Origin: Parvivirga hydrogeniphila
GTDB lineage: Bacteria; Actinomycetota; Coriobacteriia; Anaerosomatales; Anaerosomataceae
DNA: 64,000 bases
Direction of reading: 5' to 3'
NCBI RefSeq assembly: GCF_023371205.1
Contig: NZ_JAMCCO010000003.1
Coordinates: 1 to 64,000, forward strand
How positions within the stretch are numbered: position 1 is the first letter of the stretch; each line of letters begins with the position of its first letter. The notes beneath the pieces are model-generated. The model was not told where the DNA came from, searched no databases, and saw only the letters and a list, made by a program, of their open reading frames with translations. The position numbers and the translations under genes were made by a program. Shown here one piece after another: positions 56,943 to 59,738 of the stretch.

Positions 56943-58190
56943 ATGGGGCCTTCCGGCCTTGACGCGATATTCTGGGGCGTCGTGACCTTCTCGATACTCG
57001 TCGTCTTGCACGAAGGCGGGCACTTCTTCATGGCTCGCGCGTTCGGCGTGAAGGTCCACGAGTTCATGATCGGGCTCCCGGGACCTGCTCTGCGGATTCG
57101 CGGCAAGAAGACGACGTACGGCATCACAGCGGTGCCCTTCGGCGGGTACGTCCGCATCGCGGGCATGGAGCCAGGCGAGGAAGACCCGCTGCTGCCAGAG
57201 GCGCTCGGCGTCATCGCGGAGCGCGGCCCGATCACCGTCGGCGAGCTTTCCCGCGCTCTTATGGTCGATCGCGAGCGCGCATCGGACATCGCGGCCGTCC
57301 TGGAGGACTGGGGCGCTGTCGTGCGCGACGAGCTGCACGCGCTTTCGCTCGCCGACGGGCTCGACGCGCACAGGCCCGCCCGCGAGCTGCTCGACGAGGT
57401 GCGCTCCCACACCTATCGGGGGCTCTCGACGCCGAAGCGCATCGCCGTGCTCTCGGCAGGCGTCGTCGCCAACATCCTCGCCGCGATCCTGGTGTTCACC
57501 GTGGTGCTGTCGGCCTTCGGCACGTACGAGCCGAGCCTGACCCTTGACCAGGTCCAGCCTGGATCGCCGGCCGCGGCCGCTGGCCTCCGCGCGGGTGACA
57601 CCCTGGTCGCCGTGGACGGCAAACCCATCGGTGCCTGGGAGGAGTTCCAGGCAGCCGTTGCGTCGTCAAAGCCGGGCGATACGCTCGAGATCGCGTACCT
57701 CCGTGACGGTGCACGGCGCACGGTGACCGTCACCCTCGGGCAGATGGACGGGCACGGGTACGTCGGCGTGCGCGTGGGCCTGACCAAAGTGCGCTACTCG
57801 CTGGGGAAGGCCTTGTCACAGAGCTTCGTGTGGACCGGCCTCGTCTTCAAGGCGATCGTGGGATTCTTCCGGCCCGATACCTTCGGCGAGTCGGTGAGAA
57901 ACGCCCGAAGCGTCGTCGGCATCAGCGTCATGGCGGCAGACGCCGCAAAGACGGGCCCGCTCGACTACGCCTGGCTCGTCGCACTGCTCTCGCTCTCGCT
58001 CGGCGTCATGAACGTGATGCCCATCCCGCCGCTCGACGGCGGGAAGATCGCCTTCGAGATCCTGCAGCGCGTCGCAGGCCGCCCGTTCGGTCGTCGTCTG
58101 ACCACGGCGGTCACGGTCGTCGGTGCTGCGCTCCTGTTCTCGCTCATCGGCTACCTCGTGTACGCTGACATCGCACGGCTCGCAGGGTAG
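56943..58190 (+). CDS. rseP: Site-2 intramembrane metalloprotease RseP with inserted winged-helix-like domain
   Basis: Site-2 proteases cut membrane-anchored anti-sigma factors and signal peptide remnants within the membrane. The 415-residue protein has HEGGH at 23-27 in its first transmembrane segment, a PDZ domain (about 195-280), and the NVMPIPPLDGG motif at 357-367 with the third zinc ligand. Between the GGYVRIAGM loop (68-75) and the second membrane segment (about 165) there are about 87 residues, roughly 50 more than I would expect. Residues 83-130 of this stretch look like a winged helix (GPITVGELSRALMVDRERAS). The ATG follows AAAGGA. A TATCCT at 56868-56873 inside dxr might be a -10. 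Confidence 0.94.
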   Translation: MGPSGLDAIFWGVVTFSILVVLHEGGHFFMARAFGVKVHEFMIGLPGPALRIRGKKTTYGITAVPFGGYVRIAGMEPGEEDPLLPEALGVIAERGPITVGELSRALMVDRERASDIAAVLEDWGAVVRDELHALSLADGLDAHRPARELLDEVRSHTYRGLSTPKRIAVLSAGVVANILAAILVFTVVLSAFGTYEPSLTLDQVQPGSPAAAAGLRAGDTLVAVDGKPIGAWEEFQAAVASSKPGDTLEIAYLRDGARRTVTVTLGQMDGHGYVGVRVGLTKVRYSLGKALSQSFVWTGLVFKAIVGFFRPDTFGESVRNARSVVGISVMAADAAKTGPLDYAWLVALLSLSLGVMNVMPIPPLDGGKIAFEILQRVAGRPFGRRLTTAVTVVGAALLFSLIGYLVYADIARLAG

Positions 58191-58198
58191 GGAGAGCG

Positions 58199-59260
58199 AT
58201 GCCTTCTCGCATCTCGCGGCAGGTCCTCGTCGGCAGCGTCCCTCTCGGCGGCGGGGCGCCCGTCGCCGTGCAGTCCATGACGAACACCAACACCCGCGAC
58301 GCCAAGGCCACCCTCGCACAGATCGCGCGGCTCGCTGACGCCGGGTGCGAGATCGTGCGGGTGGCGATCCCGCACGCAGACGCGCTCGATGGGTTCGAAG
58401 CGGTGTGCGAGGCCTCGCCGCTGCCGGTCGTCGCGGACGTGCACTTCGACTACCGCCTCGCCATCGAGGCCATCGCGAGAGGCGCGGCCAAGGTGCGCAT
58501 CAACCCCGGCAACATCGGGTCGCTCGAGCGCGTCGACGCCGTCGTCGAGGCGGCGGGCGAAGCAGGCGTCCCGATCCGCATCGGCGTGAACGCCGGCTCG
58601 CTCGCGCCCGAGCACCGCGATCTCGACTGGCCGCTCGAGGACAAGCTCGTCGCGAGCGCTGTGCGCTTCTGCGAGCACGTCGCCTCTCGCGGGTTCGAAG
58701 ACATCGTCGTGTCGGCCAAGGCCTCATCGGTGCTGGCCACAGTCCGGGCCTACCGGCGCCTGGCGAGCGAGGTACCGTATCCGCTGCACATCGGCGTCAC
58801 CGAGGCCGGGACTGCGTTCTCCGGCACCGTGAAGTCCTCCGTCGGCCTCGGCATCCTGCTCGAAGAAGGCATCGGCGACACGCTCCGCGTCTCGCTCACC
58901 GCGAATCCGGTCGAGGAGGTCGCCGTCGCGTGGGAGATCCTCGCTGCGCTCGACCTTCGCCGCCGCACGCCGGAGCTCGTCTCCTGTCCGACGTGCGGAC
59001 GGTGCGAGGTCGACCTCGTCGGGATCGCCGGCGAGGTGGAGCGGCGTCTACGCTCGCTCGACGTCCCGCTCAAAGTCGCCGTCATGGGCTGCGTCGTGAA
59101 CGGTCCGGGCGAGGCGCGCGATGCCGACGTGGGCGTCGCTGCCGGTCGAGGCGTCGGCCTCGTGTTCCGCAACGGCCGGCCCGTGCGGAAGGTCGACGAG
59201 GCCGACATCGTCGAGGCGCTGTTCGCCGAGATCGACGACATCGTGCGCGAGCGCGGCTGA
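58199..59260 (+). CDS. ispG: 4-hydroxy-3-methylbut-2-enyl diphosphate synthase
   Basis: IspG is the iron-sulfur enzyme of the penultimate MEP step. The 353-residue protein has a TIM-barrel start with VQSMTNTNT, and a C-terminal domain where SCPTCGRC (about 261-268) and GCVVNGPGE (about 297-305) supply the [4Fe-4S] cluster ligands. GGGAGAG precedes the ATG. The stop codon lies inside a short GC hairpin followed by five T residues. Confidence 0.97.
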   Translation: MPSRISRQVLVGSVPLGGGAPVAVQSMTNTNTRDAKATLAQIARLADAGCEIVRVAIPHADALDGFEAVCEASPLPVVADVHFDYRLAIEAIARGAAKVRINPGNIGSLERVDAVVEAAGEAGVPIRIGVNAGSLAPEHRDLDWPLEDKLVASAVRFCEHVASRGFEDIVVSAKASSVLATVRAYRRLASEVPYPLHIGVTEAGTAFSGTVKSSVGLGILLEEGIGDTLRVSLTANPVEEVAVAWEILAALDLRRRTPELVSCPTCGRCEVDLVGIAGEVERRLRSLDVPLKVAVMGCVVNGPGEARDADVGVAAGRGVGLVFRNGRPVRKVDEADIVEALFAEIDDIVRERG

Positions 59261-59271
59261 CGCGCCTTTTT
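59251..59271 (+). terminator. Short U-tract terminator at ispG end
   Basis: GCGCG (59251-59255) and CGCGC (59261-59265) pair around GCTGA, which contains the ispG stop. C and TTTTT follow. The stem is only five pairs, so strength is uncertain. Confidence 0.45.
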
Positions 59272-59298
59272 GCGAGCGTCCGGCGGCGCTGGTATCCT
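59270..59298 (+). promoter_or_regulatory. Promoter of the Rossmann protein and proS
   Basis: TTGCGA (59270-59275) and TATCCT (59293-59298) are exactly 17 bases apart, 32 bases before the next start. The -35 box overlaps the end of the ispG terminator T-tract. Confidence 0.65.
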
Positions 59299-59330
59299 TC
59301 ACGCAACGCACTGCCGACCAGGGAGGAGCC

Positions 59331-59738
59331 ATGGCAGCCGAGAAGGTACGCGTCGCCGTCGTCGGAGCGGGACGCACAGGTGCTCCGCTCATCGAAGCGC
59401 TGCTCGCTTTGCCGTACGTCGAGGTCGTCGGGATCGCCGACAAGAACCCGGAGTGTGCCGGTGCGCGCATCGCGCGCGAGCGCGGCATCTTCTTCACCGA
59501 GTACCCCGACGTGCTCACGGCGAAGGGCGACGAGATCGACATCATCATCGAGGTGACGGGCGACCCTGCCGTGAAGCCTGCGCTCAAGCGCGCCTTCGCG
59601 CTGCACGGCAACACCACGACGATCATCGTCCACGACCTCGTCGCGCGCTTGATCCTGAGTCTTGCCACGGGCGCCGACCACCTGGCTCAGACCTACCACC
59701 CCCACGACCGGGGGATCGGACCTGCCGCGCAGGACTGA
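59331..59738 (+). CDS. Stand-alone NAD(P)-binding Rossmann protein
   Basis: The 135-residue protein is a single Rossmann domain: a VAVVGAGRTG dinucleotide loop (8-17), Asp37 at the end of the second strand (favouring NAD), and an IIIEVTGDP segment. It resembles the N-terminal nucleotide domain of dehydrogenases and of some signalling proteins. No catalytic or dimerisation domain follows, and it ends in a short His/Pro tail. Function is unknown. AGGGAGGAG precedes the ATG. It has its own promoter, and proS begins 31 bases later, so it may be a redox or NAD-sensing companion of that transcript. Confidence 0.85.
   Translation: MAAEKVRVAVVGAGRTGAPLIEALLALPYVEVVGIADKNPECAGARIARERGIFFTEYPDVLTAKGDEIDIIIEVTGDPAVKPALKRAFALHGNTTTIIVHDLVARLILSLATGADHLAQTYHPHDRGIGPAAQD

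Follow-up and report, generated by a model that had tools for sequence, protein, structure and literature searches.

An intact rseP gene lies on the forward strand of the 64,000-nucleotide stretch of Parvivirga hydrogeniphila DNA analysed here (the window), and the features of the gene and its product are collected in Table 1. The protein scores 200.3 bits against the RseP equivalog model TIGR00054 (cut-off 147.55 bits; E 4.7e-59) and matches the Pfam families Peptidase_M50 (E 1.7e-46) and PDZ. As in group I site-2 proteases, TM1 contains HExxH, a transmembrane segment further along the chain contains LDG, and the PDZ domain lies between TM2, modelled by AlphaFold2 as a helix at residues 163-192, and TM3. 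Judged by its motifs, PDZ domain and equivalog match, the window protein is a group I site-2 protease. H23, E24, G26 and H27 are invariant in all 30 RseP sequences compared at the order level, and from the family we take D365 to be the third zinc ligand. This is the single RseP found in the genome, the three other matches spanning the PDZ part and little more.

Open reading frames on the same strand near rseP resemble uppS, cdsA, dxr, ispG and proS (names assigned by eye). Surroundings of uppS, cdsA, dxr and ispG are ordinary for rseP in bacteria, and this lipid-gene neighbourhood looks uninformative about the insert described below. Between ispG and proS there is also a short NAD-binding-like frame (window positions 59121-59738; part of it reads MAAEKVRVAVVGAGRTG).

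Table 1. Features of the rseP gene and its product, with positions in the window
Feature	Residues	Position	Strand	Basis or remark
rseP, site-2 intramembrane metalloprotease, intact	415 aa	56943..58190	+	Pfam and TIGR00054 matches
HEGGH, zinc-binding and catalytic motif	23-27	57009..57023	+	sequence
Equivalent of the membrane-reentrant beta-loop, ITAVPFGGYVRIAGM	61-75	57123..57167	+	alignment with E. coli RseP
Insert	76-162 (87 aa)	57168..57428	+	family comparison
Predicted winged-helix core	83-137	57189..57353	+	AlphaFold2, MarR_2, structural matches
Recognition-helix equivalent, acidic	110-122	57270..57308	+	insert alignment
Predicted extra helix past the wing	146-154	57378..57404	+	AlphaFold2; leads to conserved R154, Y158 and R166 before TM2
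PDZ domain, single, extracytoplasmic	198-265	57534..57737	+	Pfam; absent in family f19
LDGG	364-367	58032..58043	+	sequence

A predicted winged helix between the beta-loop and TM2

The GGYVRIAGM motif (residues 67-75) is separated from TM2 by the insert, which in an alignment with E. coli RseP starts immediately past the reentrant beta-loop's distal arm. The count of 87 residues agrees with the length of about 87 given in an earlier note on this DNA, and is far above that of most RseP proteins outside the class Coriobacteriia. AlphaFold2 modelled the full-length protein with a mean pLDDT of 89.0 and a pTM of 0.78 (30-sequence alignment), with block averages of 91-96 across residues 81-150, and the domain modelled alone adopted the identical fold (pLDDT 86.9; 49 sequences). 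The predicted core comprises helices at residues 84-94, 99-106 and 110-122, a strand residue at 97 and wing strands at 126-128 and 134-136, which is the order H1-S1-H2-H3-S2-wing-S3 of a winged helix with a compact structural match.

Profile and structure searches are consistent with this model. The Pfam family MarR_2 matched the insert alone at 31.2 bits and within the whole protein at 27.9 bits, against a cut-off of 27; it matched 15 of 29 order-level members at E <= 0.1, where the relation of score to cut-off is known for the first member. Foldseek ranked MarR proteins first, with E about 1e-3 and none at or below 1e-3, and placed FtsK-gamma at rank 23. The best VIA-align 2 matches had Z scores of 10-11.5, and the compact ones (Z 10.4-11.5), which were Z-alpha, MarR and ROK-family domains, superposed at 1.0-1.9 A over 56-61 residues. 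Because the AlphaFold2 models, the two structural searches and MarR_2 agree, the winged-helix fold is well supported as a prediction. The pattern that the earlier note had seen in the letters was thus borne out, structure prediction giving a confident winged helix and not a disordered loop, and the fold search putting winged-helix proteins at the top. Its limits of 83-130 were close; the wing extends to about residue 137 and is followed by the further helix of Table 1. The cytoplasmic position it assigned to the insert is likewise supported, by homology with the topology of E. coli RseP, and on this basis the winged helix would face the cytosol beside the active-site entrance.

The best sequence relatives of known structure are the RseP proteins of E. 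coli and Aquifex (7w6x, 9j82). Structural comparison also places the two within its first five matches, where the integrative RasP-EcsA model 9a6w ranks above them. They share the HExxH motif, the reentrant beta-loop, the extracytoplasmic PDZ region and the LDG motif with the window protein, but have two PDZ domains in place of one and a short loop where the window protein has the winged helix. B. subtilis SpoIVFB, a group III site-2 protease with a C-terminal CBS domain, has likewise acquired an extra domain in the cytosol, although that domain is a different one at the C terminus, the PDZ is absent, and the position of the window insert is unrelated.

In the portions of the open-access literature consulted, we found no paper that describes a site-2 protease with a winged helix and no study of Coriobacteriia RseP, and neither "winged" nor "helix-turn-helix" occurs in the available text of the review PMC10202637. 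RseP with a winged helix is a new, class-wide form of RseP and not a new type of protease. The insert can pull MarR-type labels onto a protease, which is a warning for annotation.

Spread across Coriobacteriia and a single gain

The order-level search covered 61 genomes, 60 of them with a match, and gave 55 near-full-length matches; the insert is present in all of the best 30 of these 55 loci, the window among them. All 40 class-level RseP proteins read in two batches from seven further families also carry it. A profile built from 49 inserts scores at least 59.3 bits in 90 of 90 Coriobacteriia RseP proteins, a redundant set in which many of the 50 named rows are genomes of other rows, and the same minimum holds for all 20 Coriobacteriia proteins outside the profile-building set. 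In 65 of 65 RseP proteins from outside Coriobacteriia the profile reaches at most 4.1 bits. A Coriobacteriia fragment cut by a contig end (L096; 20.8 bits), which fell in the outgroup list, was not counted; two proteins that missed the loop pattern (L276, L279) have ordinary short loops by eye and were left unscored; and two loci without a frame (L086, L102) were dropped. The survey encompasses the genomes with a match at E <= 1e-20, leaving 81 of 296 phylum genomes outside it. A single-sequence query with the insert finds 107 of 246 class genomes, a shortfall that is at least largely one of sensitivity, because 12 of 20 class genomes read carry the insert though missed.

Outside the class, every loop in 40 phylum genomes, read in two batches, was shorter or held an unrelated insert. 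Counted from GG+9 up to GxxxN in TM2, the loop has a median length of 29 residues in 63 of 65 outside-class proteins and 98 in 89 Coriobacteriia rows, lengths that rest on a rough and sometimes misfiring pattern. In a tree of 93 RseP sequences from which the insert and PDZ had been removed (L268, L275 and L110, lacking the C-terminal pattern, were left out), a single branch with support of 100/99 sets all carriers apart, and this division of carriers from non-carriers recurs in 100% of 200 bootstrap trees. Given this single well-supported branch, the winged helix was most simply gained once, before Coriobacteriia diversified. Occurrence among orthologues is non-random, class-wide in Coriobacteriia and of single origin. 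Neither of the two outcomes that the earlier note had named as refuting its reading, a disordered loop or random occurrence, was observed. Chance or artefact as the origin of the insert pattern was ruled out by the class-wide survey.

The domain has been held more firmly than the PDZ. In family f19 (L125, L132-L135, L141 and L248-L259) the stretch from TM2 to LDGG measures 112-113 residues in 18 of 18 proteins, whereas other families have roughly 190 (L064 and L074 lay outside this measurement), and Pfam found no PDZ domain in any of the six f19 proteins tested. All 18 nonetheless keep the winged helix, which makes it the more stable of the two domains in the class. In families f18 and f22 the loop is larger by about 35 residues, so that the interface is not uniform.

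Long inserts unrelated to the winged helix occupy the same position in 5 of the 40 other phylum genomes, and the loop before TM2 therefore seems to tolerate domain insertion. Those of L144 and L145 (f64) and L146 (f77) appear helical and match no Pfam family. In family f69 (L157 in genome G507 and L281 in G392) a second PDZ, seen as two Pfam PDZ stretches, sits in the loop between GGYVKF and TM2, which is presumably cytoplasmic. In L097, a further bacterial RseP, the loop after GGYVRIAGM runs to about 100 residues, with no Pfam match.

Acidity, conserved residues and descent

Residues 83-137 carry a mean net charge of -4.9 across the 49 inserts (range -9 to -1), negative in every one, whereas the corresponding cores average +2.5 in 51 FtsK-gamma domains and -1.0 in 28 MarR domains. 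In the recognition-helix region the means are -2.9 for the inserts, -0.1 for FtsK-gamma and +0.3 for MarR domains of the same phylum; wing charges are not fully comparable, because the FtsK and MarR fragments stop early in the wing. Position 115 is Arg in 51 of 51 FtsK-gamma domains of the phylum but Lys or Arg in only 3 of 49 inserts (Asp in the window), and 36 of the 49 have an acidic residue at position 111. Apart from the hydrophobic core, conservation is strongest at D122 (42/49) and W123 (45/49), at the end of the recognition-helix equivalent, together with Y158 (44/49, Phe in the other 5) and R166 (49/49), whose conservation suggests a specific interface.

Two families of DNA-binding winged helix compete as relatives of the insert. 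FtsK-gamma (2j5o, 2ve8), which shares with it the fold and a similar N-terminal stretch, EDPLL, was the only family matched among solved structures by the sequence profile (E 7e-4), and a one-pair BLASTP comparison with the genome's own FtsK gave 38% identity over 45 residues (E 3e-4). The insert profile averages 16.7 bits on FtsK-gamma domains and 9.9 on MarR domains, and in 2 of 25 genomes a search with FtsK_gamma picks up the RseP insert at a score below the cut-off. The ftsK gene itself lies about 23 kb downstream of rseP, at contig position 81030, and is similarly near in several relatives. On the insert alone, however, FtsK_gamma reaches 17.6 bits, short of its gathering score of 30.6, and hhalign gives probabilities of 92% for MarR and 71% for FtsK-gamma (89 and 58 when the alignment is widened), a comparison in which the FtsK profile is handicapped because its alignment is shallow (Neff 1.6). 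Just 16 of the 49 inserts score higher with the FtsK profile than with the MarR profile, and a search of the genome with the insert profile turned up no further copy. The MarR family (PF12802), whose Pfam cut-off the window protein passes, differs in turn: the 87-residue insert, with one further helix, would seem to lack the full set of dimerisation helices, and it is acidic and lies inside a membrane protease. FtsK-gamma is a possible source by gene position and sequence similarity, and MarR-like domains fit equally well or better.

A possible cytosolic exosite

Most structural neighbours of the insert are DNA-binding winged helices, MarR_2 passes its Pfam cut-off, and FtsK is the only family among solved structures at E <= 1, all of which would suit a domain that senses DNA or nucleotides, as the earlier note had proposed, and so tethers RseP to the chromosome or reads a nucleic acid signal. 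The acidity argues against DNA binding, though it does not prove protein binding: none of the 49 inserts has a positive core, their recognition-helix region is acidic where those of the phylum's FtsK-gamma and MarR domains are near zero, and the basic contact positions are now acidic or neutral. With a core that is acidic throughout the class, recognition helix included, DNA sensing is disfavoured and that part of the note is probably wrong; we regard such a role as quite unlikely. It is still harder to credit a near-neutral passenger caught in a tolerant loop and retained by descent. Unrelated inserts in this loop elsewhere, apparently helical in families f64 and f77 and a second PDZ domain in family f69, are what that account expects, but the domain is present in all 90 Coriobacteriia proteins scored, persists in f19 where the PDZ was lost, and has its own conserved residues.

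The acidic core together with D122, W123, Y158 and R166 favours a protein interface over a DNA one, and the partner could be RseP itself. The winged helix would then pack on the protease through D122-W123 and Y158/R166 as an intramolecular gate or brace, positioning the reentrant beta-loop and TM2 and setting basal activity without binding other proteins. These residues rank among the best conserved of the insert, the insert begins right at the end of the beta-loop, and the whole chain is modelled at a pTM of 0.78 with a confident domain. A loop of about 30 residues nevertheless suffices in RseP elsewhere, so a brace is not generally needed, and we consider this account a serious possibility but an improbable one. 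For the retained helix and linker, a purely structural, intramolecular role could apply equally well.

With slightly better than an even chance, in our judgement, the winged helix was inserted once, does not read DNA and works as a cytosolic protein-binding exosite beside the substrate clamp. According to PMC4597795, the beta-loop of E. coli RseP spans Ile61-Glu75 and its distal part contacts substrate; according to PMC11486902, a cytosolic interdomain linker of SpoIVFB contacts the cytosolic domain of Pro-sigmaK, a precedent placed elsewhere in the protein, at the C-terminal side. It is this cytosolic contact, along with the protein-like interface, that leads us to propose an exosite at this place. 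The domain would sit in the cytosol, between TM2 and the distal arm of the loop that clamps the substrate. There it may dock either a regulatory partner or those portions of substrates that reach into the cytosol, such as the sigma-binding domain of an anti-sigma factor anchored in the membrane, and so recruit or gate them. Since the domain is attached where the loop that holds the extended substrate ends, docking could make it easier or harder for the scissile segment to be presented. A cytosolic checkpoint would in this way be added to the extracytoplasmic PDZ checkpoint, and in f19 would replace it.

Both the exosite function and its substrates we infer, and it is plausible that the domain recruits an anti-sigma factor or another substrate, as the earlier note had suggested. 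Six sigma-70 genes were found in the genome, two of which, unlinked, are followed by putative single-pass membrane ORFs (by eye); these ORFs are possible candidate substrates of RseP. One follows the sigma gene at L289:1423-1974, and the other, at 1979-2809, follows that at L291:1327-1992; by eye, each probably encodes a single-pass membrane protein, and one of the two has an H-x3-C-x2-C motif. A profile search of the genome for zf-HC2 anti-sigma factors gave no match at E <= 0.01.

A bolder history, which we hold to be unlikely, would start from a winged helix that read DNA, perhaps copied locally from the FtsK-gamma segment encoded about 23 kb away, and turn it into a substrate-selecting exosite of RseP, with substrate choice moving in part from the PDZ to the cytosol and the PDZ lost altogether in f19.

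Substrate choice on the cytosolic side is poorly known for site-2 proteases, and work on E. coli RseP, in the portions of the literature consulted, centres on the reentrant loop and on the PDZ domains. A winged helix anchored where the beta-loop ends throughout Coriobacteriia, and kept even without the PDZ, amounts to a natural experiment on cytosolic substrate selection, and it offers a removable module with which to probe that selection.
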